Origin: a virus
IMG/VR virus record: IMGVR_UViG_3300021600_000632
Coordinates: 1-57,567 of that record
DNA: 57,567 bases
Direction: 5' to 3' (one strand)
Shown one piece after another: positions 11,789 to 34,621 of this stretch. Each line of letters begins with the position of its first letter. Within the stretch, counting starts at the first letter, position 1. The notes under the pieces were generated by a model. The model was not told where the DNA came from. It saw nothing but the letters and a program-made list of their open reading frames with translations, and did not search any database. The translations under genes and the position numbers were made by a program.

Positions 11789-11952
11789 ATTGATTAAGTT
11801 AATAAATGCTGAGTCCAAAATAAAGAGCCCCCAATGAAGGCTCATGACTGCTTTGAACACAATTGCTCGCATTTGCAAACAAAAAAAATAGTTCAAAGTG
11901 ACCGGTTGCGCCACTGGCTCCATATAATCCCAGGCGCCCAATATGGATTATA
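11789..11952 (-). promoter_or_regulatory. Promoter and structured 5' leader of the giant secreted protein
   Basis: A perfect TATAAT on the minus strand (11947-11952) would start an RNA near 11940. The leader of about 150 bases has GC-rich blocks, a pairing TTTGAAC...GTTCAAA (near 11893 and 11852) and a hairpin GAGCC-TTCATTGGG-GGCTC followed by TTTATTTT (about 11817-11844), which looks like an attenuator. It could be a riboswitch or protein-controlled leader. I could not match it to a known class. The -35 is poor. Confidence 0.45.
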
Positions 11953-14343: not shown

Positions 14344-14361
14344 AAAAACCTCGAACTAAAA
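14344..14361 (+). repeat. 18-base direct repeat, copy 1
   Basis: AAAAACCTCGAACTAAAA is repeated exactly at 14653-14670, where it forms the left arm of a terminator. The two copies flank the zinc-ribbon gene. Confidence 0.6.
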
Positions 14362-14375
14362 AAGGAGTAACTGTT

Positions 14376-14615: not shown

Positions 14616-14653
14616 ACAAATAACACCCCGCCAATCAAGGTCGTCTAAACTAA

Positions 14654-14682
14654 AAACCTCGAACTAAAAATTCGAGGTTTTA
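14654..14682. terminator. Bidirectional intrinsic terminator
   Basis: AAAACCTCGAA and TTCGAGGTTTT form a perfect 11-base stem with loop CTAAAAA. T runs on both strands let it end both the plus-strand pair and the minus-strand genes coming from 14702 and above. Confidence 0.85.
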
Positions 14683-14997: not shown

Positions 14998-15164
14998 TTA
15001 TATCACCAATTTTTTTACTAATTTAATTCCTGTCAAAATATAGTGATCAAAAATCTTCCTTTTAATAAATACATTTTTTAAGCCTTTTTGTAAATCAAAA
15101 TTTTTAGCCAAATCTTGTATTTTTTCTAATCTTTTTTAAATTGTAGGCAATTTTTATTTGACAT
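14998..15164 (-). pseudogene. Frameshifted remnant or mini-gene of the NCPQLK family
   Basis: From ATG at 15164 the frame reads MSNKNCLQFKKD and stops. Adding one A to the run of six A (15132-15137) lets it continue for 55 codons (KRLEKIQDLAKNF...LVKKLVI) to TAA at 14998. The start matches the N-terminal signature of the cluster genes just upstream, 8 bases from the stop of the last one. It is either a decaying copy lacking its C-terminal module or a base-calling error in a homopolymer. Confidence 0.7.
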
Positions 15165-15171
15165 AAAAATT

Positions 15172-16131
15172 TTACTTTGAAAAATCAACAATAAATCTAA
15201 ACGCACGATCATTAGTGGCATCAAATGAGTCATCAGACTTGAATTGACACGGACTTATGTCACCCAAATGATTAAAGTTTGCAATTGACCGTCCTCCTCT
15301 CAGCCGATATCCATCCAGCGTTTCATCGGAAAATAATTCCTCACTATCACTAAGTCCCCAATGACTGTAATGCATGTTGCCTAAAACATTAAATTCAATA
15401 GCTCGCAGTAATCTAACCTGTTCAGCTCTTACCTTTAACTTTTCAGCAACAGCTGAGACAAAATCACTATTATTAAATACTGCTCCTTCGATATTAAATC
15501 TACTGCCAGCATCTTGCTCCTTGCCACTAATTGCTCCGTTAGCTCGATAATACTTAATAATATCAGACAAATAGTCATTCTTGAATTCTCCTGCGTGATT
15601 ATTGTAAGTATCACAACCTGGACGCTCACGCTTATCAACCAGCAACCATGAACCTTTTAAAGTAGCTGAATCATGCTGAATGTGCGGCCCCTTAGTTTTA
15701 AAAATTCCCAGTTTAGCATAATTCATCATTTGGTAGAACTCTTTATATGGTCGAAATTTCCAAGCAGCAAGCTTCGCCTTCTCCGTCATTTCAATTGACG
15801 GTAAATACCGTAACTCCATTTCCATTTTTTCCCAATGCTGGATATTCTCCAATGTAGCCTCAGCAGGTAATTCTGGCACATCAATATTTTTACCAAAAAA
15901 TTTACTAAGATCTTTACATTCTCTATTTTTTAGCAATTCAATTTTTAATTCTTTACGTTTTTCAATAACACTTACTCTCAATTTAGAAATATTAGCCATG
16001 TTTCTATCGAAATTTAAGGCATCATTACTTTGAGCGCTTGACGCAATGTTGACCTGTTTAGCAACAATGAAAAATTGCTCTTTTAGAGAGCCAATAAATA
16101 TTTTATGTTGCTTACAGCTTATATTTATCAT
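15172..16131 (-). CDS. NCPQLK-family protein with C-type-lectin/FGE-like end (last of cluster)
   Basis: This 319-residue protein is the most divergent lectin-like member. The N-terminal signature is weakened to NISCKQHK, but the central block remains: FFGKNIDVPELPAE, MELRYLPSIEM, LKGSWLLVDKRERP, and RAIEFNVLGNMHYSHWG. The C-terminal module has the EL-F-SD start, a GG pair and an R-AFRFIVDF ending in place of GFRL. The variable stretch is longer than in its relatives. It is the last intact gene of the minus-strand run, 8 bases after its neighbour's stop. Ligand and partners unknown. The fold assignment rests on the motif order only. Confidence 0.75.
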   Translation of the reverse strand: MINISCKQHKIFIGSLKEQFFIVAKQVNIASSAQSNDALNFDRNMANISKLRVSVIEKRKELKIELLKNRECKDLSKFFGKNIDVPELPAEATLENIQHWEKMEMELRYLPSIEMTEKAKLAAWKFRPYKEFYQMMNYAKLGIFKTKGPHIQHDSATLKGSWLLVDKRERPGCDTYNNHAGEFKNDYLSDIIKYYRANGAISGKEQDAGSRFNIEGAVFNNSDFVSAVAEKLKVRAEQVRLLRAIEFNVLGNMHYSHWGLSDSEELFSDETLDGYRLRGGRSIANFNHLGDISPCQFKSDDSFDATNDRAFRFIVDFSK

Positions 16132-16139
16132 AACAATTA

Positions 16140-17069
16140 CTACTGATTAAGCCTAATCATAACCCTAAAACCAACGCCAGTCGATCTGTCACTAGCGGAG
16201 AATGAATCCACCTGATCAATATCCCGTGTTGCACCGAAAACAAATTTAAATGTTTTTCCGTCTTGACCACGATCAGAGCAATGTTCGCTTGAATTTGCCT
16301 GACCCAACTGAGGATAATACATATTTGCTAAAACATTAAATTCAATTGCCCTTGGATAATCAATGCATTCGGGGCTTACAGCAAATATTGACGCAAATTC
16401 TTTTTTAGTTCTTTCGTCTTCAAGCTCGTCTAAAGTTATGCTACACCTTGATTCTTTCTTAATTTTTCCGGTTTTTGATGACTCGGCTATCGCAGCCTCA
16501 TCTACAACACCCTTGGATTTAAGTCCAGAAATTATAGCAGCTAGTAGGTCATCTTCATATTCCTGAGTTTCACCCATACTAATACGCCATGGCTTCTTGA
16601 TATTTTCAATTAAAAACCAACCTGATTTTAACTGAGTAATATCTTTGGGAAATGTTCCTTTATTTATCATGTCCCACATTCCAAATGCCCCACTATGTGG
16701 CTTTTTCCTCCAACCCGGATACTTAGCGCTCTTGTTCATGTTTATCTCTGGTAAGTAATGAAGATCTAGACCGAGCTGCTTCCATTGTTCGAGTTTATCT
16801 TGTGTTATTTCTTTAGGTAAAAATGACACCTCAATTTTTTCACCAAAAAATTTTTCCAGGGCCATTGCCTCTCCTTTTCTAATTTCAAAACCAAATGGCA
16901 ATAACTCTCGAAGATCAGTAATTAGAAACTCAAGAAACATCATCTTACCGTTTATTTTATCGGCATGATCACACGTGCTGGCCGTCTGAATAGATTCATT
17001 AATATCATCAATTCTGAACTTTAATTCGTCAAGTTGTTTTTTTAATTGTGGGCAATTTAGATTTCGCAT
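16140..17069 (-). CDS. NCPQLK-family protein with C-type-lectin/FGE-like end
   Basis: This 309-residue paralogue starts MRNLNCPQLKKQL, followed by a helical segment, then the conserved centre: FFGEKIEVSFLPKEIT, LDLHYLPEINM, YPGWRKKPH and LKSGWFLIENIKKP. The end begins PRAIEFNVLANMYYPQLG and closes with TGVGFRVMIRL. Between them are 40-odd variable residues rich in Ser and Asp. GFR(L/V) endings after a variable stretch are typical of the C-type-lectin-like fold used by diversified bacterial proteins. It lies 9 bases from each neighbour in the cluster. Function unknown. Confidence 0.8.
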   Translation of the reverse strand: MRNLNCPQLKKQLDELKFRIDDINESIQTASTCDHADKINGKMMFLEFLITDLRELLPFGFEIRKGEAMALEKFFGEKIEVSFLPKEITQDKLEQWKQLGLDLHYLPEINMNKSAKYPGWRKKPHSGAFGMWDMINKGTFPKDITQLKSGWFLIENIKKPWRISMGETQEYEDDLLAAIISGLKSKGVVDEAAIAESSKTGKIKKESRCSITLDELEDERTKKEFASIFAVSPECIDYPRAIEFNVLANMYYPQLGQANSSEHCSDRGQDGKTFKFVFGATRDIDQVDSFSASDRSTGVGFRVMIRLNQ

Positions 17070-17078
17070 AATTTCAAT

Positions 17079-17753
17079 CTATTTCTCATTTTCTATATCT
17101 GGAATTACAAAGATATATTTCTGCTCCCAGTCTTGACTAGGTAGCACAGCTAACGTTTGTCGATAACCACCCAGGGAGGAATATCGACGATTTGTTAAAC
17201 AAAACACATACTTTTGACTACCATAAGCTATTGGCTCCATCGCTACAGCGAACCTTTCACCTTCTGCTAAATGTAAATCCTCTCGCCCTAAATACAATGC
17301 TGTTTCGGTCTGACAAAGATCAAATCCGATATCCATAGCTTTTTTATTAACCTCATTGAGATTACTCAAGTAATCTACACCAAGCGTTTTATAGTCAATA
17401 AATGCTATTCTTATTTTTTTTGGAGTATCTGACAGAATGCAATTTATACTCCTAACTACTCCAATCCTAGTGCTTTCAGCGGGTCCTATAATTTCAGATT
17501 CAAGCTTGTTTTTATCAAGAGTGCCACCAATTAACAACTCCTTGGTCTGTATTTGCTCTTTAATTAAAAATTTTTCAAGACTAACATGTCGCTTAAATTC
17601 AAGAACAATATCAAGCAGCTCCTGTGATAAATCTTCAATCTCAGCGAAGTTTTTTCCAGTATCAATATTTGCAATATGCTCACCCATAATTAATACTTGC
17701 TCTTTAAGGTATTCTAATTTGTATTTTAGCTGTGGGCAATTATTATTGTTCAT
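17079..17753 (-). CDS. NCPQLK-family protein with a different C-terminal module
   Basis: This 224-residue protein opens MNNNNCPQLKYKLEYLKEQ but lacks the lectin-like end. Its C-terminal half contains KAMDIGFDLCQTETAL, then FAVAMEPIAYG, then a closing strand KYIFVIPD. The neighbour at 17756-18463 has the same order (AQSMGFELCPAQ ... PVDPITDV), so the two share one module, distinct from lectin, WG and LRR types. The shared A-x2-(M)GF-x-LC core may be a small alpha/beta domain. Function unknown. It lies 2 bases after the upstream stop. Confidence 0.75.
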   Translation of the reverse strand: MNNNNCPQLKYKLEYLKEQVLIMGEHIANIDTGKNFAEIEDLSQELLDIVLEFKRHVSLEKFLIKEQIQTKELLIGGTLDKNKLESEIIGPAESTRIGVVRSINCILSDTPKKIRIAFIDYKTLGVDYLSNLNEVNKKAMDIGFDLCQTETALYLGREDLHLAEGERFAVAMEPIAYGSQKYVFCLTNRRYSSLGGYRQTLAVLPSQDWEQKYIFVIPDIENEK

Positions 17754-17755
17754 CT

Positions 17756-18463
17756 TTAAACTTTAAATATATATTCGCCAAAATTTGCCTGAGACTTGTA
17801 AGATTTTGCACTAATCAATGGATTAACCTCCTCAACTCTAATAAATATCATATTATTGTCCCTGACATCAGTGATTGGATCCACAGGAAAATTATACATA
17901 CCCTGCTTTGCATTTTTTTGACTAGCGAACTGTTCAATAAAAGATACAATGGACTGTGCCGGACAAAGTTCGAAGCCCATACTCTGAGCCCTTTTTACCA
18001 GCTCTACTGACGTTGCACCGTCTTCCAGACCGATTTCATGTGCATCAACACAAACTAACCTTAATTTATTTGGACATGTCTCGCTCAAATCAAATCCTAT
18101 CTGTTCGCGCGTTTTATGAAAGAGCGCAATATTCAATAGTGTGTCTGCGGCCGTTTTATCCATTTCAAGACCGAAGTTTTTCAATTTAGCAATAGTGCCC
18201 TTGTTGGCCAGACAAGAAGGATCTACATTAACCTCCACTAGACCAAACTTTTTAAATAGCTCGTCCTTGCGTAGTTGCACAAGATTTATTTTTAACTCAC
18301 CTACCAAATCCTCTAATTTAGCCAACTTATCAAGCATAAAACCAATTTCGTTAGGTTTACAACTACCATCTTTAAGTATTTTAACCTCTGTATTCAGCAA
18401 ATTTTTCTTTGCGATAATATTTACTAGCTGTTTTTTTAGTTGTGGGCAATTCAAATTAGACAT
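17756..18463 (-). CDS. NCPQLK-family protein, module as in its downstream neighbour
   Basis: This 235-residue protein opens MSNLNCPQLKKQL with a helical segment to about residue 75. The remainder has LRLVCVDAHEIG, SMGFELCPAQ and NMIFIRVEEVNPL, which align with the next gene (17079-17753). The two are therefore a tandem pair of the same subtype. No catalytic motif was recognised. It lies 3 bases from both neighbours, so translation is probably coupled. Confidence 0.75.
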   Translation of the reverse strand: MSNLNCPQLKKQLVNIIAKKNLLNTEVKILKDGSCKPNEIGFMLDKLAKLEDLVGELKINLVQLRKDELFKKFGLVEVNVDPSCLANKGTIAKLKNFGLEMDKTAADTLLNIALFHKTREQIGFDLSETCPNKLRLVCVDAHEIGLEDGATSVELVKRAQSMGFELCPAQSIVSFIEQFASQKNAKQGMYNFPVDPITDVRDNNMIFIRVEEVNPLISAKSYKSQANFGEYIFKV

Positions 18464-18466
18464 AAA

Positions 18467-19381
18467 TTATTTATCAATACGAACAACCAGACGAAAACCA
18501 ATATTCTGACTTCTGTACTCGCTGTTAAAATGTCCAATACCGGAGAAGCCATTTTTTGTAGAGCTGCCAGAGCAGATCGTTGAGCCCAGACTAGCAAAAT
18601 CATTGTTTAACCATTCCATAGTGCTGGTCTTGCTCCACTCAGGATGATGTATATTACCTAAAAAGTAATACTCTGGTAATCTTGGCAAGCCAACTTGAGT
18701 CCACTCTACATTTAACAAGTCAGCAAATGCTTGTTTAACACCAATTTTACTCTCTAGTTCTATTGGCGTTTGTCCATACCTTGATGACTGACTGATCTGC
18801 ATTTTTTTGTCAGATGCTTGTTGCTTTGAGGCCTTAACTTTTGGCTCGGCCTCAAGTAACCCCATAGCCTTTAACTTAACAATTACTGGAGCCAAGCTAT
18901 CATTATTATACTCAGTAACCGGCTCACTTATTTCCGGCTTTGGGCAAGTATCAACTAATATCCAACAGCCATTTAGCTCGAATTTTGAAAAAAATCCAAG
19001 TGATGCACCAAATTGATATAAACTATTTTTTAAATTATTATCAAAATCTTCAAAGCTCGTCTTAGGCAAGCAATGAAGTTTAAAACCCAGTCTTTCCCAG
19101 TTTCTTATTTTTTCATGAGTAACTGACTTCGGAAATTCTGGCAACTCAACTTCACGTTTGAAAAAACGGCCTATCTTTTGTCTCTCTCTTTTTTGCAACA
19201 TCAAACCAACCGGCAGCAGTTCTTCAAGCTTAATCATTAAAGATGAGAGCATGTTTATCATCTTATCTAAATCAGATAAACCTTGTTTATCAACATCAAC
19301 AATCATCAACTCTATATCGGCCTGAATTTTATCAATTTCTTGAAGCTGTTTTTTTAGTTGTGGGCAGTTTATATTTTGCAT
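18467..19381 (-). CDS. NCPQLK-family protein with C-type-lectin/FGE-like end
   Basis: This 304-residue paralogue starts MQNINCPQLKKQL. The centre has FFKREVELPEFPKSVT, FKLHCLPKTSF and LNGCWILVDTCPKP. A lysine/glutamine-rich insert (KVKASKQQASDKK, near 190) is not seen in its relatives. The end begins LPRLPEYYFLGNIHHPEWS, has a Ser/Gly-rich variable stretch and closes SQNIGFRLVVRI. It is spaced 2-3 bases from its neighbours. Function is inferred only as ligand recognition. Confidence 0.8.
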   Translation of the reverse strand: MQNINCPQLKKQLQEIDKIQADIELMIVDVDKQGLSDLDKMINMLSSLMIKLEELLPVGLMLQKRERQKIGRFFKREVELPEFPKSVTHEKIRNWERLGFKLHCLPKTSFEDFDNNLKNSLYQFGASLGFFSKFELNGCWILVDTCPKPEISEPVTEYNNDSLAPVIVKLKAMGLLEAEPKVKASKQQASDKKMQISQSSRYGQTPIELESKIGVKQAFADLLNVEWTQVGLPRLPEYYFLGNIHHPEWSKTSTMEWLNNDFASLGSTICSGSSTKNGFSGIGHFNSEYRSQNIGFRLVVRIDK

Positions 19382-19383
19382 AA

Positions 19384-20259
19384 CTATTTATTTTCATTCA
19401 ATCTGGCCATTAATCTAAAGCCGGTATTATCTGAGCTTCGTTCGAAACCAGTTAGGCCAACAGACGATAGATTGTTATCACCAACCCAGCCCGCCACAAG
19501 ATTTTTCACAATTAATTGGCTATCAGCCAGCCATTCATTACATTCCGTATCGCCCCATTCTGGATGATGCATATTTCCCAAAACACTATATTCTATCGCT
19601 CTAGGCAACCCCAAGCTTTCAACTGGCACGTTAATTACATACGCCAGTTCATTTAAAATACTCTGGCTCTTTAGTTCCCGAGCTGTAATATTAAATCTTG
19701 AACCACCCTTATCAATACTTTTGATTGCAAAAATGCTTCGCAAATATGCCAAGACGTCACCAAGTAAGTCATCAACGTAACCATCTCTAGATTTTTTAAT
19801 TCCTTCAATAAGTATCCACCCAGCCTTAAGTCTTGTTGAGTTTGCTGGTAAAGTGCCGTCGGCAACTAAATCATAAAAACTTTTATCAAGCTTATTTTGC
19901 CAGCCAGGACAACCAACATCTTTTGACATATCCACATCTGGTAAGTAATGAAGCTCCATGCCAAGTTCTTGCCATTCCATATACTGCTCGGGCGTAACAG
20001 TTGCTGGCACATGCAGCACCTTAATTTTATTACCAAAGAATTTTTCCAAGGCAACTGCCTCTTGCCTAATTATCTTTCGGTCAAACAATAACGCATCAAA
20101 GGTAAGTATCGCATTGGTCAACTCCTCTAATTTATCATTTATATATTCAATTTTTACGTCCTTGTGGCTAGGAACCTGCAATAACTCAACAACACCGTTT
20201 TCAAGCGCTTTTAGTGTGGCTAAATTATTTTTCAGACTCGGACAGTTAATATTTGACAT
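19384..20259 (-). CDS. NCPQLK-family protein with C-type-lectin/FGE-like end
   Basis: This 291-residue paralogue has MSNINCPSLKNNL at the start. The centre has FFGNKIKVLHVPATVT, MELHYLPDVDM, CPGWQNK and LKAGWILIEGIKK. The module starts LPRAIEYSVLGNMHHPEWGDT, with EWLAD then a variable stretch, and closes DNTGFRLMARL. The centre is closer to the gene at 16140-17069 than to the upstream trio at 31.9-34.6 kb. It lies 9 bases after the preceding gene. Confidence 0.8.
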   Translation of the reverse strand: MSNINCPSLKNNLATLKALENGVVELLQVPSHKDVKIEYINDKLEELTNAILTFDALLFDRKIIRQEAVALEKFFGNKIKVLHVPATVTPEQYMEWQELGMELHYLPDVDMSKDVGCPGWQNKLDKSFYDLVADGTLPANSTRLKAGWILIEGIKKSRDGYVDDLLGDVLAYLRSIFAIKSIDKGGSRFNITARELKSQSILNELAYVINVPVESLGLPRAIEYSVLGNMHHPEWGDTECNEWLADSQLIVKNLVAGWVGDNNLSSVGLTGFERSSDNTGFRLMARLNENK

Positions 20260-20268
20260 TCAATATAT

Positions 20269-20907
20269 TTATTTAGGCCAGGTTTTTACCCAACTCTTGC
20301 CTTGTTCATTAAATCCAAAGATCATCTGGTTCTCCATGTTACCATCCACAAGGACACCACGATTTATCTCCGTATCTCTTTGCATGCTTGCCTCACCTCT
20401 AACATCAATACTCCCAGATTTAAGCATAAATGCATATGACAGACCGTCGGTGACCTCACCGGTATTTTCGTATTCACTAAAATCTTTTATATCGCCCTCA
20501 CTAGCCATTAACATTAATAAATTCCCTTGCTGATCAATAATTTCAGACACCAATTTCAACTTGGCAAAATCATCACCCAATTCTGCAGTAAACTTCTTAA
20601 ATAAATCAACAATTTCCTGTCGACTAAAAATAACCTTGCCGAGCATTTGCGAAGTTACGAACTGACTAACAAAATGCTCACTTTTTGGCATCAAGTCATC
20701 CAAGCCACGCTCTTTTTTAATATTTCGCACAATATCCTTCACACAATAAAGCTGAGCGATCGCAAATCGCTCTTTTTGTATTCCCTGATCCAAATCATGA
20801 ATATCAACTGCCTGATCAACATCCTTAATACTCTCGCCAAAATCAACTAAAGCTTGGGCTAGTTTTTGAAATTCATTTTTTAGTTGTGGGCAGTTTGGAT
20901 TATTCAT
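20269..20907 (-). CDS. NCPQLK-family protein with unique C-terminal module
   Basis: This 212-residue protein starts MNNPNCPQLKNEFQKLAQ. Helical residues to about 130 are followed by a short beta-rich end (LSYAFMLKSGSIDVRGEASM ... QMIFGFNEQGKSW) unlike the other members. Its start overlaps the end of the WG-repeat gene by 8 bases, indicating translational coupling. No known domain was recognised. Confidence 0.7.
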   Translation of the reverse strand: MNNPNCPQLKNEFQKLAQALVDFGESIKDVDQAVDIHDLDQGIQKERFAIAQLYCVKDIVRNIKKERGLDDLMPKSEHFVSQFVTSQMLGKVIFSRQEIVDLFKKFTAELGDDFAKLKLVSEIIDQQGNLLMLMASEGDIKDFSEYENTGEVTDGLSYAFMLKSGSIDVRGEASMQRDTEINRGVLVDGNMENQMIFGFNEQGKSWVKTWPK

Positions 20908-22066
20908 AATTTATATCAAAAACCTTTTCACCTTTTTTATTTATATAGTAAGACGCGCCACCTTTACTAACAAACGCAATATCACCAACGAAGGGATTCG
21001 TTTTACTGAAAGAATCTTTTATTGCTAATTCGCCACTCTTATTGATATACCCCCACCTACCGTTTATCATTATCGAAGCAAGGCCTTCATAAAAATCAGA
21101 TACTACATTAAATGAATTTCCATAAAAATTTTGACCACTTTTAAAAATAATATTTTCACCCCTATCTATTGCAATTATCTCTTCGTTAACAACTGCCCAA
21201 GCAATACCATCACTAAACTGTCGTAAAAATTGGTATTTTTTATTTGATACTTTTTCTCCATCAAGACCTACAAAATAGCAAGAATCTTTTTCTTTAATGA
21301 CCGCCAACCCATCTTTAAAATCTGAAACAGCTTCACCATACATTTCATATAGCTCGTCTCCTGTATTGTCAATTAAGATCGTATCATCGCCAAATTTAAC
21401 AAACGCTCTTTCATTATGAAACTCACCAGCTTCATCATATTCACCAAAAACCTTTTCACCCTTACTATTTATATAAAAACAATCATTGTCCTGTTTGACC
21501 GAGCAAAACCCCTCACTAAATCGCCCAACATCGTCATAGCATTCATCGTTCAAACTACCTCCATCTTTAGTCACAAAATTATATCCAGTTCCAAGATTCC
21601 AATGTGCAACACCTTCATAAAAATCACTAACATCTTGATAGCCAGATCCAATTTCCTCACCATTTTCATCTATCCAAGTCCAATCGCCATACATGCTTAC
21701 CCTGGCCATGCCTTCGTGAAAATCACAAACCTCATCATAGTCAACTCCAATTTTTTGCCCTGACTTATCGATAAAAAATTGTCTATCACCCTGAATTACT
21801 TTTGCACGATCATCAATAAATCTACCAACAAAATTATAATTAAATTTCTCGGCTAGTTTAAGCCTATACTTTAAACCAAAAAACGCCTCATTTGTTTTGA
21901 TCAGTTCTATTTGATTTTGAAGATCATCAATAACTGCTGAAAAATTTTCCAATTCACCAATATTTGTAGCTTCGTGAATATGACTAACAAAATTATGTGC
22001 CTTATCTTCCAAGGCTTTTATTGCACTTAAACTCATTCTAAGTTGTGGACAGTATAAATTGTTCAT
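20900..22066 (-). CDS. NCPQLK-family protein with WG repeats
   Basis: This 388-residue protein starts MNNLYCPQLRMSL, followed by a helical spacer to about residue 70 and then about eleven WG-type repeats of roughly 24-30 residues. The pattern is F-x-EGxAxV...W-x-ID-x-xG-x-x, for example VCDFHEGMARVSMYGDWTWID. WG repeats form beta-propeller-like or solenoid surfaces used for binding, with no catalytic role known. A second WG protein lies at 26125-27582 in the same cluster. It is 16 bases after the preceding gene. Confidence 0.85.
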   Translation of the reverse strand: MNNLYCPQLRMSLSAIKALEDKAHNFVSHIHEATNIGELENFSAVIDDLQNQIELIKTNEAFFGLKYRLKLAEKFNYNFVGRFIDDRAKVIQGDRQFFIDKSGQKIGVDYDEVCDFHEGMARVSMYGDWTWIDENGEEIGSGYQDVSDFYEGVAHWNLGTGYNFVTKDGGSLNDECYDDVGRFSEGFCSVKQDNDCFYINSKGEKVFGEYDEAGEFHNERAFVKFGDDTILIDNTGDELYEMYGEAVSDFKDGLAVIKEKDSCYFVGLDGEKVSNKKYQFLRQFSDGIAWAVVNEEIIAIDRGENIIFKSGQNFYGNSFNVVSDFYEGLASIMINGRWGYINKSGELAIKDSFSKTNPFVGDIAFVSKGGASYYINKKGEKVFDINYE

Positions 22067-22082
22067 AATTTTATATAAATTT

Positions 22083-26112: not shown

Positions 26113-26124
26113 GTAAATTATAAA

Positions 26125-27582
26125 TTAATCATCATCCCAATCTTCCTCATATTCTGGCTCTAGCTTTTTTGGTGTAAATATTGTTTCACCTTTTTTGTTT
26201 ATGTAAAAACTTTCATCACTTTCATCTTTGCGCACTTGCCATAAACCATCTTTATAGCCATAAAATTGAGCAATATCTCTAATAATTTCTTTACCTTCCA
26301 TAGTATAACCATCATAGACCACGTCATTTCCCATTATTCTGCTGGATGTAAAAGTTATGCCATTACAGACATCACTTGGATCATATTCTGATTCGAAATT
26401 CGTAAAATATTTATTTAGCTGTCCTTGCTTGTCAATAAAACTCCAAGTCAAGAATTCTTCATTGCCAGGATATTCATTTTTCACCTTTGCATACCCTTCT
26501 TTAAACGAATGTACCTCAAATTGCCACACTTCAAGCAAAATAACCCCATTAGTATCTATGAAATTATATCTTAAATATTCCTCAGATTCGTCTGGTAAGT
26601 TATTCCCATGCTCATCTTCATATTCTTGAGTGAATCTTGTGCTCACTACTGCATAACCTTCAGAAAAAGATTTTACAGACTCATAGCCCTCAAAGCATAC
26701 TTCGCCTTTGAGATCCAAAAAATACTCATTACCCTCAAGGTCCTTAACTCTTGTGTAACCATTACTATATCCGTCAACCTCTTGATACTCACCTTCATGA
26801 AAAACTTTTCTTGTCGCCACGTCATAAAATACAAACTCATCACCTTGCTTTCCGGTAATAACACCTTCAGAATACTGTGAATAGTTAAGACTTGGCAAAT
26901 CACAAATCTGAGTGTAACTCTGATCTAATATCAAATCACCGCTAACGCCACCATGAATAATAACCACCCCGTCATTACTTTTGTCAACACCAAAACCACT
27001 ACGAACCTCGCGGAATATCTTCGACTCCTCTTCTAGCTTGTTTCCCTTTTTATCAATAAAATAATAAGGTGATGAATCGATACTTTTTTTTACGATTGCC
27101 CGACCATTAGCAAACTGACTAGCATATACAAATTCTCCATCACTAAAACCTCCGTAACCACAAATATAGCCATCTTTATTAAGGTATACATGTTTATTTT
27201 TTATCTTCACCACCGCCATGCCATCAGAAAAGTGTGAAACCAAACAAGCACCTTTTGAAAATCTATTCTTTACTCCACCCTCTTGATCAACAATAAACAG
27301 TTCCTCATCCTTCTCACCAAAAGCGCGACCTTCGGAAAATTTACTTAAAAAATTAAAACCATGGATTTTGGCGATCCTGTCACGAAATTTGATTTGATTT
27401 GGATCACTTTTTTCCGATAGTGCGCAGAATAATTCAGACACTGAGGCAAAACTTGCTTCAATGTCTTTAAAGTCAGTTGACTTGCCAGCCTGCAAAAAGC
27501 CTTGAAACTCAAGCTCAAAATCCTCAAGGTTTTTCTTAAGTTTTTGAAGATCTAATTTTATCACTGAACAATCGGTCTGCAT
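26125..27582 (-). CDS. WG-repeat protein of the NCPQLK cluster
   Basis: I place the start at 27582, one base after the stop of the preceding small gene; the frame is open 18 codons further, but those overlap that gene. The 485-residue product opens MQTDCSVIKLDLQKLKK, a diverged form of the cluster's N-terminal Cys signature. Helices to about 85 are followed by about fourteen WG-type repeats, for example FSEGRAFGEKDEELFIVD and FANGRAIVKK...YYFIDKKG. The C-terminus is very acidic (EPEYEEDWDDD). It lies between the MoxR and VWA genes, so it may be a fixed scaffold rather than a swappable member. Confidence 0.85.
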   Translation of the reverse strand: MQTDCSVIKLDLQKLKKNLEDFELEFQGFLQAGKSTDFKDIEASFASVSELFCALSEKSDPNQIKFRDRIAKIHGFNFLSKFSEGRAFGEKDEELFIVDQEGGVKNRFSKGACLVSHFSDGMAVVKIKNKHVYLNKDGYICGYGGFSDGEFVYASQFANGRAIVKKSIDSSPYYFIDKKGNKLEEESKIFREVRSGFGVDKSNDGVVIIHGGVSGDLILDQSYTQICDLPSLNYSQYSEGVITGKQGDEFVFYDVATRKVFHEGEYQEVDGYSNGYTRVKDLEGNEYFLDLKGEVCFEGYESVKSFSEGYAVVSTRFTQEYEDEHGNNLPDESEEYLRYNFIDTNGVILLEVWQFEVHSFKEGYAKVKNEYPGNEEFLTWSFIDKQGQLNKYFTNFESEYDPSDVCNGITFTSSRIMGNDVVYDGYTMEGKEIIRDIAQFYGYKDGLWQVRKDESDESFYINKKGETIFTPKKLEPEYEEDWDDD

Positions 27583-27583
27583 A

Positions 27584-27784
27584 CTAAGCAGCAACCTCGG
27601 CCGTATCTGGGCAAAGCTCGGCAATTTCCTCCTCAAGTGACTTAATCTCCTCCTGCAAGCCCTTAAACTTTTCTACTAACTCCTTCTTTTGCATTTCAAA
27701 CTTTTTTTGTTCTAGTGCCTCAGTGCTTTGTGTAAATGTTTCTTTTGCAGCAGATTCAAATCCGCCCATGCCTGGATTTTTCAT
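27584..27784 (-). CDS. Small coiled-coil protein between MoxR and WG genes
   Basis: This 66-residue protein is nearly all coiled coil: Glu/Lys heptads from about residue 25 (KKFEMQKKELVEKFKGLQEE), ending ELCPDTAEVAA. The LCPDT near the end recalls the Cys-Pro of the paralogue signature, perhaps by chance. It is 4 bases after the MoxR gene and 1 base before the WG gene, so it is translated with the core pair. It may be an adaptor. No known family. Confidence 0.7.
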   Translation of the reverse strand: MKNPGMGGFESAAKETFTQSTEALEQKKFEMQKKELVEKFKGLQEEIKSLEEEIAELCPDTAEVAA

Positions 27785-27788
27785 AGAT

Positions 27789-30700
27789 TTATTTATTAGA
27801 TAATTTATTAATTAAATTTTGTGCTCTTTGTTCTGGTGTCATATTCGCAGCTTCTGCTAATTCTTCGTCACTAAGCATACTTCTTTTGTGCAAATACCCT
27901 TCAAGGAAGGCGAAGAACTCTTCATAGGTTTCAAGCTTCGCACCCTTCTCTGCTTCATCAAATTTGACCTCATACTCCTTAATCTTATCTATGACCATAT
28001 CGAGCTCCTTAATACTGTCATATTCCAACCCAACCATAAGCTCCATTATCTTCTTGACCTGCTTAACCATCTCAAGTCCGCGAATTTCTGCCTCCGTGTC
28101 ATCTTCACCTTCACGCATCTTGCCAGCTATCTTCTCATATTCCTCTTTTTTGCGCATCGGTAAATAGCCAAAGACTAACTGGGTCATTTCGAGCGAAGAA
28201 AAATATGACAACTCATATTGCCCCTGTGTATTGAGCATACTGACATAGTCGCCATTCTGGGCAATACGTTTATATTTCCCATCGACTTCACCAGCAACAC
28301 CTTCATATTTGCCCAAATCTCGCAATGGATCAAAATTCATCATTTGCTTAAAATCAGTAACCGCCTGACTCTGATTTGAATCAACTCTCATATAATCAGG
28401 CCAACCACCGTCGGCACTAAAAAATCCTGCTTTATTTAAAGTCGCATAAATCACAGCCTGAGCCTGGGGGTGCTGGTCATATTTCTTCACATAATTCCAC
28501 AGATAATATTCGATATCCATAGATCCACCCTGGTCAACATAAGCCCCCAAAATCTGATCCATCAATTCACGCATGGTTAGATTAGCACTACTCAAAGAAC
28601 TAGCGATAAGGGCTGGTGTCACGTCTGCACCAAGAATTGGCTTCAAGTTATCAAGTCTCAAGCCACTATTTCCAGCCTTGCCCTCAAAAACATCCATTAT
28701 CAAACGAGCACCAACACTTAGGCGATACATGTCCTTGAAAAATGAATAACGATCATCTTTTTTGACCAAGACCCTGGCACCCAAGCGCTGATTCATCATC
28801 TTCATGAGTAACACCTCAAATATCTGATCATTTTTAGCCAGCGACTTTGAATCATCAATAATTTTCTGTAGCTCCTCATCATCTTTAAACTCGTCAGTAA
28901 TATGACCCAAGTTCAAACGCTCAATATCAGTTTTAGCCTCATTAAGTTGATTGCTTTGTGGCAAATAATTAACTTGCACCGGAATAATACGACTGTAAGT
29001 AGCTGGATCAGTGTCATTATGGCGCGCTTTGGTATAGCGGTCACCAGTGTTACCAGTCCAAATTACACAATAGCCGGGCTTAATTTGGAATTCACCAATC
29101 GAAGCCTGAGTTTTTTGTGTCTCGCCAATCTTCTTGGTTAAGAGATCGTTAAAAGCAATTAAAACTTCTGGGGGGATGGCGTTTGCCTCGTCAATAATAA
29201 GCGGTACGCCCTGGCGCATGGCTTCATACATTGCACCTAATACAAATCTACCTTGTACTGGATTACCATAGACACTAGCGAGTTGGCCATTAACCAACTC
29301 TTCTGTCTCACCTCTTAATTTTTTCTCATTTTTCTTAAAATACGCTTCAAAACCACTCTCAGTATCATCTTGATCTTCGGACAATGAATTATGATATTCC
29401 TGACGAGCCACCTGCATAAATACCGCCTCACGCTGCTCTTTTTCTGATCCTACCATGGCAGCAATTGTCTTGGTCAAAGACTCATTACTGCTTAAGTCCA
29501 CGTCTTCGCCAAATTTCTTGGCAATAATTTTGAAATGCTCTTCTGGTGTCAAATTCTCAATCTTGAAAGTTTCAGTAAAGCGGTCCGGCTCTAAATATTT
29601 ACTACCAGAAACAATAATCGGATCTTTTGATTTGCCGTTTTCATCTTTACCTGTCAGATAATTTCGAGCAATGTGAGTCGCCAAGGCAGTCTTGCCCGTA
29701 CCATGGTCACCATGTAAATAAACGATAGTTGGTGACTTGCCCTCTTGCACTTTAAGCACTGGCAAAATCTTTTCGATAATACTTTTGATGTATGGCGTCT
29801 CAACAATTTTACCATTGTGTAGCATCTGCCAAAGATTACCCAATTCACGCTTGTAGTTTACGTAGGCCGGCAAAAACTCCTTTGCCACAATATTTCCAGA
29901 CTTTTCATATTCAGTCTCCATGCCAACATTCAAATTCAAACCTAAATTCTTTTTGGCTAATCGAGAAAAGCGCTCATTTAGTTTACCAATTCTTTCCTGC
30001 TTCAACCTAGGTCGCATTGCACCAAGCTCCTCAGAGCTTCTAAGCATATCGACATTTCGACTAGACTTGCTTGCCGCCAAGGTAGATTTATTTTGCCTAA
30101 GTTTTCGTATCGTATCTCGAACATCTGGATACTGGGCTTGAGCATATTTTTCAATCGATTTCATTTCGTCATCAGAATATGCACCAAGCTCTTGATCTAA
30201 TTCAAAATATTCTTCCAGGTTTAAAAAAGCTCGATGAGATTTACCAGCAGCTCGATTTTCTGCTTCGCGATAAGCATTACTACTAGTATTCTCTTGATCA
30301 TGTTCAGATAAACTTGCCAACTCTTTGTTCTCAATTGACTGCATTATAAAGTCATAAAAATCATCACCATCTTCTGTTTCGGCTATTTTTAACAAGTCCT
30401 TAAAGACTTCAACATTTACATTATTCGTTTTATTCTCATCACTTTTTTCGACCAAGGCAATTTTAGCTGCTGTTAATGTTTTATGAATAATTTCTGGCGA
30501 CATTTCTCTCGACTCAAGTTCTTTAGCCAAACCATCAATTTTTTTGAAATCTTTTGCATGAGCTAATATCTCTTCCACATCTTCACGATGCACACCATCG
30601 AACAATGATTGCAAGGTTTCACTCGATAAATCTTTTACGGTAATATTCTCAACCATTTCATCCATCAAGGCACGTGATTCTTCGAGTTTAGCCATGTAGC

Positions 30701-30797
30701 CAAAGGCTAAATCCTCAGCTTCAAACGTATTCTCTAATTTAGTATCTTTTGCCGCCTCGGTCGAACGTGCGACTGGCGGTCGATTTTCCTTAAACAT
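27789..30797 (-). CDS. Large MoxR-type AAA+ ATPase
   Basis: This 1002-residue protein is the motor of the cluster. The AAA+ domain starts near 335, with Walker A GDHGTGKTAL at about 362-371, Walker B PLIIDEANAI at about 526-535, and WTGNTGD as sensor region near 580. Residues 1-330 are helical and charged, far longer than the short N-terminus of a typical 300-400-residue MoxR. Some 300 residues follow the lid. No transmembrane segment is seen. MoxR enzymes remodel protein partners using VWA proteins as adaptors; this fits the neighbouring VWA gene. The particular substrate is unknown, but the paralogue family around it is the obvious candidate. Confidence 0.88.
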   Translation of the reverse strand: MFKENRPPVARSTEAAKDTKLENTFEAEDLAFGYMAKLEESRALMDEMVENITVKDLSSETLQSLFDGVHREDVEEILAHAKDFKKIDGLAKELESREMSPEIIHKTLTAAKIALVEKSDENKTNNVNVEVFKDLLKIAETEDGDDFYDFIMQSIENKELASLSEHDQENTSSNAYREAENRAAGKSHRAFLNLEEYFELDQELGAYSDDEMKSIEKYAQAQYPDVRDTIRKLRQNKSTLAASKSSRNVDMLRSSEELGAMRPRLKQERIGKLNERFSRLAKKNLGLNLNVGMETEYEKSGNIVAKEFLPAYVNYKRELGNLWQMLHNGKIVETPYIKSIIEKILPVLKVQEGKSPTIVYLHGDHGTGKTALATHIARNYLTGKDENGKSKDPIIVSGSKYLEPDRFTETFKIENLTPEEHFKIIAKKFGEDVDLSSNESLTKTIAAMVGSEKEQREAVFMQVARQEYHNSLSEDQDDTESGFEAYFKKNEKKLRGETEELVNGQLASVYGNPVQGRFVLGAMYEAMRQGVPLIIDEANAIPPEVLIAFNDLLTKKIGETQKTQASIGEFQIKPGYCVIWTGNTGDRYTKARHNDTDPATYSRIIPVQVNYLPQSNQLNEAKTDIERLNLGHITDEFKDDEELQKIIDDSKSLAKNDQIFEVLLMKMMNQRLGARVLVKKDDRYSFFKDMYRLSVGARLIMDVFEGKAGNSGLRLDNLKPILGADVTPALIASSLSSANLTMRELMDQILGAYVDQGGSMDIEYYLWNYVKKYDQHPQAQAVIYATLNKAGFFSADGGWPDYMRVDSNQSQAVTDFKQMMNFDPLRDLGKYEGVAGEVDGKYKRIAQNGDYVSMLNTQGQYELSYFSSLEMTQLVFGYLPMRKKEEYEKIAGKMREGEDDTEAEIRGLEMVKQVKKIMELMVGLEYDSIKELDMVIDKIKEYEVKFDEAEKGAKLETYEEFFAFLEGYLHKRSMLSDEELAEAANMTPEQRAQNLINKLSNK

Positions 30798-30818
30798 AGG
30801 GTTAAAAATTATTGATCT

Positions 30819-31823
30819 TTAAAAACGTGTTTTATATGTTACTCCATACAAATTTTTATATTGACCTTCATCTATCTCCTCTGCTAACGTCTTGTCTATT
30901 ACCACGAGATTATCATGAAACAAGGCAAAATCTCTATGGATATCTAACATCTCAGCTAAGTTGTTATCAATAACGAGTTCTGGCTGCTTGAAGGCACGGA
31001 TCTCAAGGTAATAATCTTTATGCTTAATCAAGTCACAAAGCATTTCGCGGGTCATTGGATCGTTGGTTTCTATTACTAGTTTGCCCTTAAACTTTACTAA
31101 TTCCTTACATATCTCTGGCGTTATGTTGCAATTAAGCGAAATTGCCTCATTGTGCTGCATTAATAATTTAGCAGCCTCAACGTCTGCCACCCCGCCAAAC
31201 CGCAGATCTCCTTTAACATCTTCCAATGCCGATAAAGCTTCCTTGGAATAAGTTTTAAAATCGCCTAAGTATATTTTTCCGTCATGTCCATCAAGTTTCT
31301 GCAATGACTCAACGCTTATTTTGTCAAAAGTTTGCAAATTAAGTGTACCTACATGTTCGCTCAAGCCCTCGGCTGCCCCTGGCGTTAACTCTTCTAACGC
31401 CTCAAAAGTCAAATTACCTTCATGCTTCCCAAGCTGTTCTGCCACTTCTGGCGTCAAGTGCGACAATCGTCGGAGATAGATTTCATTACTCTTTCTTTTG
31501 CCCTTCAATAAATTAATATTTCCCATCGGCCCTTGAGTTAACGGGGTACTCCTGGCCGCAACCTTTTCATGTCGTTCAACCAAAAATTCAGCAACCTCAG
31601 CATTCAACTCAGTTATTTCTTCGCACTTATCCAGCTTACCATTCACAATCTCTTGCCATAACTTCATATTACGAAGTTCTTCTATCTGGTCATGCAAATA
31701 GATAAACAAATCCTTAGCATCGGTGAATTCGTCCCTTGATTTAATATCACACAACAAATCACCCAAAACTTTTTCGGTATTTCTAAGTGCTGGTAATTTT
31801 AACTTAAGACTAGGGCAATACAT
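30819..31823 (-). CDS. Cys-signature protein with LRR-like repeats
   Basis: This 334-residue protein starts MYCPSLKLKLPALRNTEKVL, a short form of the cluster's N-terminal signature. Residues about 120-270 hold six to seven leucine-rich-like repeats of about 22-24 residues, such as LTPEVAEQLGKHEGNLTFEALEE and LTPGAAEGLSEHVGTLNLQTF. LRRs are binding surfaces. It is the first gene of the second transcription unit, immediately before the MoxR gene, with a promoter-like sequence just upstream at 31843-31872. Confidence 0.8.
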   Translation of the reverse strand: MYCPSLKLKLPALRNTEKVLGDLLCDIKSRDEFTDAKDLFIYLHDQIEELRNMKLWQEIVNGKLDKCEEITELNAEVAEFLVERHEKVAARSTPLTQGPMGNINLLKGKRKSNEIYLRRLSHLTPEVAEQLGKHEGNLTFEALEELTPGAAEGLSEHVGTLNLQTFDKISVESLQKLDGHDGKIYLGDFKTYSKEALSALEDVKGDLRFGGVADVEAAKLLMQHNEAISLNCNITPEICKELVKFKGKLVIETNDPMTREMLCDLIKHKDYYLEIRAFKQPELVIDNNLAEMLDIHRDFALFHDNLVVIDKTLAEEIDEGQYKNLYGVTYKTRF

Positions 31824-31842
31824 GGGGTTTGATATTTACTTT

Positions 31843-31872
31843 ATTTTACCAACTTTTCACAAATTTGACCAA
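31843..31872 (-). promoter_or_regulatory. Putative promoter of the core unit (LRR-MoxR-VWA)
   Basis: On the minus strand TTGGTC (31867-31872) and TAAAAT (31843-31848), 18 bases apart, with TGG before the -10. It lies just past the terminator at 31873-31893 and 20 bases before the LRR gene start. Confidence 0.45.
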
Positions 31873-31893
31873 CAAAAAAGAGGGCTTGCCCTC
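31873..31893 (-). terminator. Terminator separating the lectin-like trio from the core unit
   Basis: GAGGGC-AA-GCCCTC followed by TTTTTTG on the minus strand, 27 bases after the stop at 31920. A TGCTATAAT extended -10 (31902-31910) precedes it by only a few bases, so it may also act as an attenuator of a promoter there. Confidence 0.75.
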
Positions 31894-31901
31894 CTGTGGA
31901 T

Positions 31902-31910
31902 ATTATAGCA
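31902..31910 (-). promoter_or_regulatory. Extended -10 element just before a terminator
   Basis: The minus strand reads TGCTATAAT, the same as at two other sites in this window. Its RNA would begin within a few bases of the hairpin at 31880-31893, suggesting attenuation control of the core unit. Confidence 0.4.
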
Positions 31911-31919
31911 GGTTTTATA

Positions 31920-32795
31920 TTAAAAACGAACCATAGGGCGGAAACCCATCGTGTTATCACGACGACTTTCTGGATAATAGTTAACATGCGAAAGACCGCC
32001 GTCAACAGAAATACCACCATAAAGCCGGTAACCTCCATCATATATGTCACTAAACCATTCGTAATTTGTGGTCGTGCCCCATTCCTGGTGATGTATATTA
32101 CCCAGAACATTGAAATCAATCGCACGAGGTAACGTCATCTTATCTGCTTGAACTTTTAATACACTGGCTAATGTCTCTCGAACTTCTATTTTTTCTAATT
32201 CTTTAGCAATAATGCCGAATCTTGAATCCTTTTTCTCAAAATCATCTATTACTCCATCTTGACGTAAAAGCGCTAACGATTCAGCAAGAATATCATTCTC
32301 ATACTGCATTTTTTGGCTTGGTTTTTGTCGACCATCAATCAATACCCAACCAGACTTTAATTCGTCTGAAGTAATAGAAATCTTTCCATCAAGCATACAG
32401 TCATAAAACCATTTTTTTGGCCTTTCCCTCCATCCGGGGTAATCTTTATCTTGGCTCATTTCTATTTCAGGCAAATAATGCAATTCAAAGCCTTGCTCTT
32501 TCCATTTCTCCGCCTGTTTAACTGTAATTTCTTCTGGTAATTTAGGCACCTCAATCGGCATACCAAAAAAGGCTTCGAGTTTTTGCTTCTCTGATTTTAT
32601 CAATTCACGAAAGTGTAGTTTTTCGTTTATCTCATTGATTAGCTCCAAGGCGTCATTAAAAATAGCATAAACCTCGGAAACTTTAGACTCCTTGAAATTT
32701 GTTAAGTTCAATTCTTCTAGCTCAACAGCAATCGTATTTTCTTTGGCTTTGAGGAGAAAGAGTTGTTTTTTTAATTGTGGGCAGTTAAATGTCAT
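31920..32795 (-). CDS. NCPQLK-family protein with C-type-lectin/FGE-like end
   Basis: This 291-residue paralogue starts MTFNCPQLKKQLFLLKAKE. The centre has FFGMPIEVPKLPEEIT, FELHYLPEIEM, YPGWRERPK and LKSGWVLIDGRQKP, which are nearly consensus for the family. The end begins LPRAIDFNVLGNIHHQEWGTT, then EWFSD, a Gly/Tyr-rich variable stretch with GG, LSHV, and closes DNTMGFRPMVRF. It is the third of a close trio (about 12-14 bases between genes) and is followed by a terminator. Confidence 0.82.
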   Translation of the reverse strand: MTFNCPQLKKQLFLLKAKENTIAVELEELNLTNFKESKVSEVYAIFNDALELINEINEKLHFRELIKSEKQKLEAFFGMPIEVPKLPEEITVKQAEKWKEQGFELHYLPEIEMSQDKDYPGWRERPKKWFYDCMLDGKISITSDELKSGWVLIDGRQKPSQKMQYENDILAESLALLRQDGVIDDFEKKDSRFGIIAKELEKIEVRETLASVLKVQADKMTLPRAIDFNVLGNIHHQEWGTTTNYEWFSDIYDGGYRLYGGISVDGGLSHVNYYPESRRDNTMGFRPMVRF

Positions 32796-32806
32796 AATTC
32801 AATACA

Positions 32807-33697
32807 TTAAAATCTAACCATAAGGCGAAAACCTAGCATCTTATCTCGAAAATTTGAATCAACAACTCGAATATCAGAAAGACCACCTGCATCGCTATTT
32901 CCACCGCAAAGATGCCGATCATCATCAATCAAACTATCACTAAACCATTCGCGATTCTCTGTATTATCCCAATCTTGATAATGTAAGTTGCCTAAAATAT
33001 TAAAATCAATGGCCCTTGGCAATGAGACGTTATCAGGTGACACGGCCAAAACCTCCGCCAGTAATGTCATAACTTCAACTTGTTTTAATTCATCAAAACT
33101 AATATCATACCTACTTCCAGTGTTTTTTGTTTTAATTTGCCCTGACTTCTCCAACTTAGCCAACGCATCTTTAAAACAATCATTCTCATATGAATGGGCA
33201 TTAAAATTCTGCCCATACGGCTTTTGCCGACCATCAATTAATACCCACCCGGATTTTACTTCATCTGAATCAATTGAAAGGCTCCCAAAATTAACAGAAT
33301 CGTAAAACAAATTATTAGGCTTCTTGGTCCAACCGGGAAACTCCCTGTCATTTGACATTTTAACATTTGGCAAATAATGCAATTCGAATTGTTGCTTCTG
33401 CCAAGCTTCTACCATATCCTTGGTTATTTCAGCTGGTGGGTTTGGCACATCAATCGAAAAACCAAAAAATTCATCAAGTTTAGCTTTTTCAGTTTCAATT
33501 AAATCCCTAAATGGCATTAGCTCTTTAATTTTATTAATCAAATTACTAGTCTCTTGAAAAGTGTCATAAACCTTATCAACGTTCGATCGTTCGAAGTTAG
33601 TCAAACTCAACTCATCAAGTTCTACAGCAATCATATCTTGCTTAGCGAGTAACTGATGAAGTAATATTTTAATTTGTGGGCAATTCTTATTTCGCAT
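32807..33697 (-). CDS. NCPQLK-family protein with C-type-lectin/FGE-like end
   Basis: This 296-residue paralogue starts MRNKNCPQIKILLHQLLAKQ. The centre has FFGFSIDVPNPPAEIT, FELHYLPNVKM, FPGWTKKPN and VKSGWVLIDGRQKP. The end is LPRAIDFNILGNLHYQDWDNT, EWFSD, a variable stretch and MLGFRLMVRF. Of all pairs in the cluster, this and the next gene (31920-32795) look most alike, suggesting recent duplication. Even so their variable stretches differ at most positions. Confidence 0.82.
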   Translation of the reverse strand: MRNKNCPQIKILLHQLLAKQDMIAVELDELSLTNFERSNVDKVYDTFQETSNLINKIKELMPFRDLIETEKAKLDEFFGFSIDVPNPPAEITKDMVEAWQKQQFELHYLPNVKMSNDREFPGWTKKPNNLFYDSVNFGSLSIDSDEVKSGWVLIDGRQKPYGQNFNAHSYENDCFKDALAKLEKSGQIKTKNTGSRYDISFDELKQVEVMTLLAEVLAVSPDNVSLPRAIDFNILGNLHYQDWDNTENREWFSDSLIDDDRHLCGGNSDAGGLSDIRVVDSNFRDKMLGFRLMVRF

Positions 33698-33710
33698 TTA
33701 CTTATTTAAA

Positions 33711-34601
33711 CTAAAAGTGAATAAAAAGACGAAAGCCCAAATTGTCACGTTCCTCATTGCAGGCCATATTTTTAATATCAGAAAACTTACAATTTCCATA
33801 GTTATCACCACTAACCAAATAGTCATTATTCCCAAGTTTATCATTAAACCATTCAAAATTGTAGGATTTCTCCCACTCCTTATGGTGCATTTGCCCTATT
33901 ACATTATACTCGATTGCCCTTGGTAGTTCTATTTGACGTAAAGATACCCCTAAAACCTCACTAAAACCCTGCTTGGCTTCTCCGGTATTCAAGCGCAGTG
34001 GATTTGTTCTAAATCTAGTAGTGGCTGTTTGCGAATTATTCCTAATTATACCTTCTTGTCTCATTTCTGCAATTTTTTCGCCTAAGGCATCATTTATGTA
34101 TACATCACCTCTGCTATCTGGCTTCTGTGTTGCGTCAACAAGAATCCAACCAGCTTTCAACTGATCTGCGCTAGCATCAATTTTACCGTTTTTAATATAT
34201 TTATAGAATGAATCATTGGGCTTTTTCTTCCAGCCAGGAAATACATCTTTTTCGCCCATTTTGATATCTGGCAAATAATGAAGCTCAAAATTTTGCTCTT
34301 GCCACATGGCCATTTTCTCATAGGTCACCTCTGACGGCAAACTAGGCACCTCAATTGTCATGCCAAAAAACGCCTCGAGCTTTTGCTTTTCTGATTTAAT
34401 CAATTCATTGAAAGGCAACTTTTCCTTCAATTTTAATACTAAATCACTAGTCTGCTCTAGCATCTTATAAACTTCGTCAGCTTTTGCTTGTTTATAGCCA
34501 CCAGCCAACTGCAGTTCTTCAATTTCTACCTTTAAGGTATTCTGCTTGGCCAAAATAATATGCAACCTTGATTTTAATTGTAAGCAGAGTTTACTTGCCA
34601 T
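33711..34601 (-). CDS. NCPQLK-family protein with C-type-lectin/FGE-like end (first of cluster)
   Basis: I take ATG at 34601, four codons inside the longest frame, because it gives MASKLCLQLKSRL with Cys at the family position. The 296-residue protein has FFGMTIEVPSLPSEVT, FELHYLPDIKM, FPGWKKKPN and LKAGWILVDATQKP. The end is LPRAIEYNVIGQMHHKEWEKS, EWFND, a variable stretch and DNLGFRLFIHF. It is the first gene of the cluster; a promoter with an operator-like repeat lies just upstream. Confidence 0.8.
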   Translation of the reverse strand: MASKLCLQLKSRLHIILAKQNTLKVEIEELQLAGGYKQAKADEVYKMLEQTSDLVLKLKEKLPFNELIKSEKQKLEAFFGMTIEVPSLPSEVTYEKMAMWQEQNFELHYLPDIKMGEKDVFPGWKKKPNDSFYKYIKNGKIDASADQLKAGWILVDATQKPDSRGDVYINDALGEKIAEMRQEGIIRNNSQTATTRFRTNPLRLNTGEAKQGFSEVLGVSLRQIELPRAIEYNVIGQMHHKEWEKSYNFEWFNDKLGNNDYLVSGDNYGNCKFSDIKNMACNEERDNLGFRLFIHF

Positions 34602-34621
34602 AAATAATAACATGAATGAAT

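Follow-up and report, generated by a model that had tools for sequence, protein, structure and literature searches.

A run of 16 genes on the minus strand of the DNA analysed here (57,567 nucleotides of a virus record, in the following called the window) probably encodes a modular system for sensing inside the cell, in which one MoxR/zincin-VWA engine would serve many docked sensors; its most likely target is a virus or another intruder. This reading builds on the composition of the cluster, on the swapping of N-termini and modules among its proteins, on the recurrence of such arrangements with MoxR and VWA in other genomes, on their linkage to DGRs, on the lack of signal and membrane segments and on a fusion of MoxR to a CLec domain.

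Organization of the gene cluster

The window, an IMG/VR record, looks like Patescibacteria chromosome plus a prophage, with a tiny, uncultured Patescibacteria-type bacterium as the bearer of the cluster. At 15172-34613 lie one MoxR gene, one zincin-VWA gene and 14 genes for proteins with a common Cys-containing N-terminus (N-Cys proteins), accompanied by a 12-codon remnant. The modules behind this N-terminus are seven of the GFRL type, a tandem CLec-type pair, two WG, one VGVVFSR, one LRR-like and one unclassified. The features are listed below.

Left part of window: nrdG/nrdD/nrdR-like genes
3992-11941: 2649-aa protein, N-terminal hydrophobic segment, no Pfam match; probably a large surface protein
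12332-13240: tyrosine recombinase
15126-15164, minus strand: remnant of a 15th N-Cys gene, MSNKNCLQFKKD followed by a stop; 47-nt repeat family D1
15172-16131, minus strand: N-Cys + GFRL (CLec-type), 319 aa
16140-17069, minus strand: N-Cys + GFRL (CLec-type), 309 aa
17079-17753, minus strand: N-Cys + second CLec-type family, member 1 of tandem pair; paralogue of 17756, aligned with the L050 DGR target
17756-18463, minus strand: N-Cys + second CLec-type family, member 2 of tandem pair; phmmer 5.2e-5 against L050:2193-3005 (DGR-target homologue, G151)
18467-19381, minus strand: N-Cys + GFRL (CLec-type)
19384-20259, minus strand: N-Cys + GFRL (CLec-type)
20269-20907, minus strand: N-Cys + unclassified module, 212 aa, no Pfam match
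20900-22066, minus strand: N-Cys + WG-repeat propeller, PF14903 9.1e-30
22083-23093, minus strand: N-Cys + VGVVFSR module (family of a DGR target); matches L029 array proteins and the L066 DGR target
23086-26112, minus strand: zincin (HEFAH) + VWA (MIDAS DLSGS), 1008 aa
26125-27636, minus strand: N-Cys + WG-repeat propeller, PF14903 2e-13
27789-30797, minus strand: MoxR-type AAA+ ATPase, 1002 aa; AAA_5 8.8e-8, Walker A GDHGTGKT
30819-31823, minus strand: N-Cys + LRR-like repeats, assigned by sequence, no Pfam match
31920-32795, minus strand: N-Cys + GFRL (CLec-type)
32807-33697, minus strand: N-Cys + GFRL (CLec-type), structure predicted with pLDDT 89
33711-34613, minus strand: N-Cys + GFRL (CLec-type)
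34674-36077: AAA_14/DUF4143-type ATPase, adjoining the cluster
37-57 kb: phage lysis, tail, head and terminase genes

The gene-by-gene inventory of the initial annotation, 14 genes and one remnant around a MoxR/VWA core, proved correct, including the remnant, and the same split of modules was found again. Regarding spacing, the tight packing described there applies to most genes, with some overlaps and gaps mostly between -8 and 21 bases; the exceptions are 152 bases before the MoxR gene and a further gap of 96 bases. All cluster genes do lie on the minus strand, but so does nearly every gene in the window, so that the co-direction of the cluster alone means little. Translation of 26125-27636 probably starts downstream, at MQTDCSV, and relatives of this protein are held by genome G174 (6e-7 with the G174 N-terminal profile). 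Just past the cluster end, an exact 19-nt direct repeat (AAAAACCTCGAACTAAAAA) is found at 14344-14362 and 14652-14670, 308 bases apart. An ATPase similar in appearance to the one adjoining the cluster also lies next to the DGR locus of G151 (L050 815-2035).

A common N-terminus with interchangeable modules

The short Cys start and helical spacer that had been proposed for most of the genes were both recovered. In all 14 N-Cys proteins, a Cys follows the likely start by no more than a few residues (pattern C-x-x-[LIVH]-[KR]), whereas such a start is rare elsewhere (1 of 36 other window ORFs, 11 of 216 ORFs of related loci), and the front end is predicted to form a helical hairpin with helices at residues 5-32 and 37-60. 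Compared in pairs, some of the window's front ends resemble each other weakly, the LRR-like and the second WG protein resting mainly on the Cys motif. The domain carries no name in Pfam or PADLOC.

By hydropathy, neither signal peptide nor membrane segment was detected in any of the 16 cluster proteins, and the system is therefore read as cytoplasmic. The surface recognition or host-cell interaction considered in the initial annotation thus found no support. Nor did the N-terminus, a predicted hairpin free of such segments, prove to be a known secretion or anchoring tag. A lipoprotein reading of the N-terminal Cys was rejected, since no hydrophobic stretch lies ahead of it. Conservation of the 5' ends as a handle for DNA recombination was likewise considered and rejected, since their codon choice is slightly more uniform than background at best.

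N-termini can be aligned inside a locus and just marginally across loci, and the one of the G084 array is Cys-free. In the case of the window and G174, their similarity is weak and above background in profile ranking (Mann-Whitney p=1.5e-5); hhalign gave E values of about 0.001-0.004 at a probability of 8-21%, compared to 0.025-0.9 for reversed or shuffled controls.

Exchange of modules can be followed in the protein at 22083-23093. Over residues 1-60, it matches paralogues from the window whose remaining parts are quite different (e.g. 18467, 8.7e-11). Its residues ~48-335, on the other hand, match proteins of the G084 array (L029, down to 5.6e-32) and the DGR target of L066 (5.7e-24), both of which have different front ends. 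At the sequence level, this domain-swap breakpoint is the clearest single result for swapping between N-termini and modules. Together with the MoxR/VWA association and the same grammar in independent loci (see below), it supports the proposal of a common N-terminus with interchangeable modules, and with it a part of the interpretation given in the initial annotation. The structure prediction of this protein reached a pLDDT of 35 and was set aside.

The GFRL modules are predicted to adopt a C-type-lectin/FGE fold. In the case of the 32807-33697 model, CarF, SenA, TvpA, EgtB and PvdO head the Foldseek list of PDB matches and FGE is also matched, with probabilities up to 0.99 but E values of 0.007-0.03; TvpA is a hypervariable protein. 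The second CLec family (the tandem pair) and the VGVVFSR family are homologues of Patescibacteria DGR targets, and the WG propellers of 20900 and 26125 are plain.

The MoxR and zincin-VWA core

The ATPase at 27789-30797 matches AAA_5 in Pfam (8.8e-8), and a profile built from seven relatives matches midasin (7.6e-21); judged by these matches, it sits on the AAA_5/midasin side, in the MoxR clade. Its neighbour at 23086-26112 carries HEFAH at residue 102 and the MIDAS motif DLSGS at residue 784. In a six-sequence alignment of the VWA proteins, the H, E and H of HExxH and the D-x-SGSM were invariant. HExxH was present in all seven zincin-VWA proteins checked, a motif from which metalloprotease activity is predicted, and the relatives match PF00092. 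Pfam gave no propeller match on the 1008-aa VWA protein. Its membership in a known metallopeptidase-VWA Pfam family was rejected, as no Pfam match was obtained.

Recurrence in other genomes

Profile searches found the zincin-VWA protein in 11 of 380 sampled genomes of the phylum, in 5 of 55 of one class and in 22 of 381 of another; GFRL relatives came from Candidatus Uhrbacteria, Levybacteriota and Roizmanbacteria. The genomes compared are draft assemblies, in which contig ends truncate several loci. Within the stretch examined, MoxR was seen in 27 of 36 zincin-VWA loci (window and Patescibacteria), most of the nine others being on short contigs or close to the end of a contig. Arrays of paralogues sharing their N-terminus stood next to the core in about 11 of the 36. 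This count demands at least two neighbours with a common N-terminus, excludes the unrelated paralogue pairs of L049 and L097, keeps DGR loci apart and includes G174, where the array was detected by profile and not pairwise.

In the case of G174 (contig 46, 11-69 kb, L022-L025), a genome of about 1.1 Mb, some 45 co-directional genes, about 40 of them with an N-Cys start, extend over 58 kb; this array adjoins MoxR and VWA and runs to the contig end. One of its module families, of unknown fold, has eight members, and hhalign found no link between this family and the CLec families. The G084 array comprises 11 genes, including a VGVVFSR module and propellers, and LRR-like, helical-repeat or unknown modules appear at other loci. 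A Cys-start protein also stands beside the core in G014, G197, G284 and G707. MoxR and VWA occur together without a recognisable sensor at L007, L008 and L026, and GFRL modules are present with VWA absent in G002 and G003. Between MoxR and VWA of L007 (8395-9780), about 1.4 kb hold no convincing gene, where a sensor gene may have been lost. In L053 (1-4661, G246), the VWA gene is flanked by paralogues of near-identical N-terminus whose short helical repeats vary in number.

Altogether, such clusters recur in relatives, and the scattered single genes that would have spoken against the initial annotation were not the rule. The association of its N-terminus with MoxR and VWA, central to the initial annotation, was found in other genomes, and module content differs radically between genomes under the same grammar.

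Linkage to hypermutation

A DGR-type reverse transcriptase was found in 9 of the 36 zincin-VWA loci. In G151 (L050), it adjoins MoxR and VWA, and 20 of 20 TR/VR mismatches fall at template adenines. In G422 (L063 699-3509), a single protein of 936 aa consists of a MoxR AAA+ domain fused to a DGR-variable lectin domain, with the zincin-VWA gene next door and 7 of 7 TR/VR mismatches at template adenines over an 80-nt core. The phage-like IMG/VR contig L066 (7958-12503) holds a reverse transcriptase, an Avd-like protein, a VGVVFSR-type variable protein and MoxR in a row, again with all seven TR/VR mismatches within the repeat at template adenines. These pairs indicate that families of modules which stay static in the window undergo hypermutation elsewhere, around a like engine. 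As far as sequence can tell, the fusion in G422 is the strongest argument for lectin modules and MoxR working together. The reverse transcriptase of L063 is split in two pieces.

The 57.6-kb window itself contains neither a reverse-transcriptase-like ORF nor an A-biased (TR/VR) repeat pair, and DGR activity was therefore rejected for this stretch. Across loci, mutual exclusion of DGRs and arrays was not significant (Fisher p=0.43).

The presence of L066 bears on the ownership of the array, which might belong to the adjacent prophage as cargo, e.g. for superinfection exclusion by a lysogen, rather than to the chromosome. The cluster lies between the tyrosine recombinase (12332-13240) and the phage genes at 37-57 kb, and L066 combines a DGR, a VGVVFSR target and MoxR on a phage-like contig. 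However, in one Patescibacteria class 56 of the 57 genomes sampled have a homologue of the recombinase, with identities of mostly 33-41% among full-length matches, so that this protein may be the Xer recombinase of the host. No phage genes lie close to the G174 and G084 loci or to most of the others. Scans of IMG/VR with a single VWA, with MoxR, with the GFRL alignment or with the VWA profile as query gave no other copy, and tblastn found no MoxR in phage records. The far end of the phage falls beyond the window. We regard prophage ownership as rather unlikely; it would in any case be compatible with a sensing system.

Proposed mechanism

For the sensing system, we infer docking on MoxR/VWA, the type of ligand, a protease output and a role in defence as follows. 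The MoxR AAA+ ring and its zincin-VWA partner would form one ATP-driven engine. The third component would be a repertoire of sensors, all docking through the N-Cys helical hairpin of about 60 residues as their shared plug, and each reading its ligand with the module at the C-terminus, be it CLec, WG-propeller or LRR-like. Ligand binding would alter the docked complex, MoxR/VWA would remodel it, and zincin proteolysis would thereby be unleashed or directed. Two routes could supply the repertoire: duplication with module swapping (window, G174, G084) and DGR hypermutation (G151, G422 and others). As pure speculation, the Cys of the plug might ligate the zincin metal in the fashion of a cysteine switch. 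No known defence family was recognised in the cluster (Pfam for all 16 proteins, PADLOC for ten), where two weak generic AAA matches were obtained.

Cargo tags follow the same scheme of a short common N-terminus and a variable C-terminus. The N-terminus could hence be a targeting tag, with MoxR/VWA as a chaperone in the maturation or export of various binding proteins or effectors, similar to the trafficking domains of polymorphic toxins. Patescibacteria often live on other cells, which would suit such an export. Yet the lack of signal peptides and membrane segments, the ligand-binding scaffolds of the modules, the lack of recognised secretion, toxin or immunity genes in the cluster and the MoxR-CLec fusion of G422, odd for an exported cargo, make this improbable. 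Less probable still is a housekeeping assembly machine in the manner of NorQD, RavA-ViaA or MoxR itself, building a complex with N-Cys subunits: the best-studied MoxR-VWA pairs do serve complex assembly or metal insertion (PMC7159879), but radically different module content between genomes, patchy occurrence (11/380 of the phylum) and DGR hypermutation of a partner are hard to square with fixed subunits.

Relation to known systems

The proposed sensing system has precedents. In the MoxR-vWA ternary conflict systems, a MoxR AAA+ ATPase and a VWA co-chaperone are joined by a variable third component (Kaur et al. 2020, PMC7159879), and the same logic of sensor and engine was proposed for other phyla by these authors and by Dore et al. 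2024 (PMC10907252). The window cluster has a MoxR-clade ATPase, a nearby MIDAS VWA and a variable third component, and it shares with the systems of Kaur et al. the CLec/FGS and propeller modules and, in a subset of loci, the DGR linkage. In contrast to them, the VWA is here fused to an HExxH zincin and brings along no effector module, variability is spread over many separate genes whose products have their N-terminus in common, and the hosts are Patescibacteria and not multicellular bacteria. Unlike in the beta-propeller subsystem, where the propeller is C-terminal on the VWA protein, the window propellers sit on separate N-Cys proteins. For VMAP, iSTAND (inactive STAND) or double FtsH third components, no match rose above cut-off (Pfam for all 16 proteins, NCBIfam and PADLOC for ten), a search that very divergent forms could escape.

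As in the CLec antigen sensors beside MoxR (Dore et al. 2024, PMC10907252), CLec modules are proposed here as sensors upstream of a MoxR engine. TR/VR pairs accompany families related to these modules in G151 and L066, and a different lectin module in G422. The window differs in having no reverse transcriptase or TR, its diversity being a static gene array that includes non-CLec modules. Regarding Patescibacteria themselves, targets of their DGR clade were described without recognisable partner domains and with their role left open (Roux et al. 2021, PMC8144416), and CLec-AAA fusions among CPR/Patescibacteria DGR targets are cited in PMC10907252. The second CLec and VGVVFSR families of the window are homologous to such targets, and G422 adds a MoxR-CLec fusion; unlike in those papers, which left partner or function open, the partners here are MoxR and zincin-VWA.

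The combination, unfamiliar at the time of the initial annotation, is consequently less isolated than it seemed, several of its modules belonging to families diversified by DGRs in Patescibacteria and MoxR-VWA with DGR lectins being known in other phyla (PMC7159879, PMC10907252). MoxR-VWA ternary systems, DGR lectin sensors beside MoxR and Patescibacteria DGRs are all published (PMC7159879, PMC10907252, PMC8144416). In the literature covered, which included few subscription papers, we found no description of Patescibacteria loci that combine a zincin-VWA engine with numerous sensor genes sharing a plug. There is perhaps an even chance that Patescibacteria carry an undescribed MoxR-VWA class, defined by a VWA engine of zinc-metalloprotease type and many separate, plug-compatible sensors with a locus-specific plug, the repertoire being either a static array, which reaches some 40 genes across 58 kb in a genome of about 1.1 Mb, or the product of retroelement hypermutation.

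MoxR/zincin-VWA thus offers a concrete and testable partner for Patescibacteria DGR-type modules, by fusion in G422 and by swappable plugs elsewhere, and two routes to a repertoire, array or hypermutation, would be found around one engine. Large sensor repertoires, in systems previously tied to multicellular bacteria, would be placed in ultra-small genomes. If true, some of the smallest bacterial genomes would hold an immune-like repertoire of sensors.
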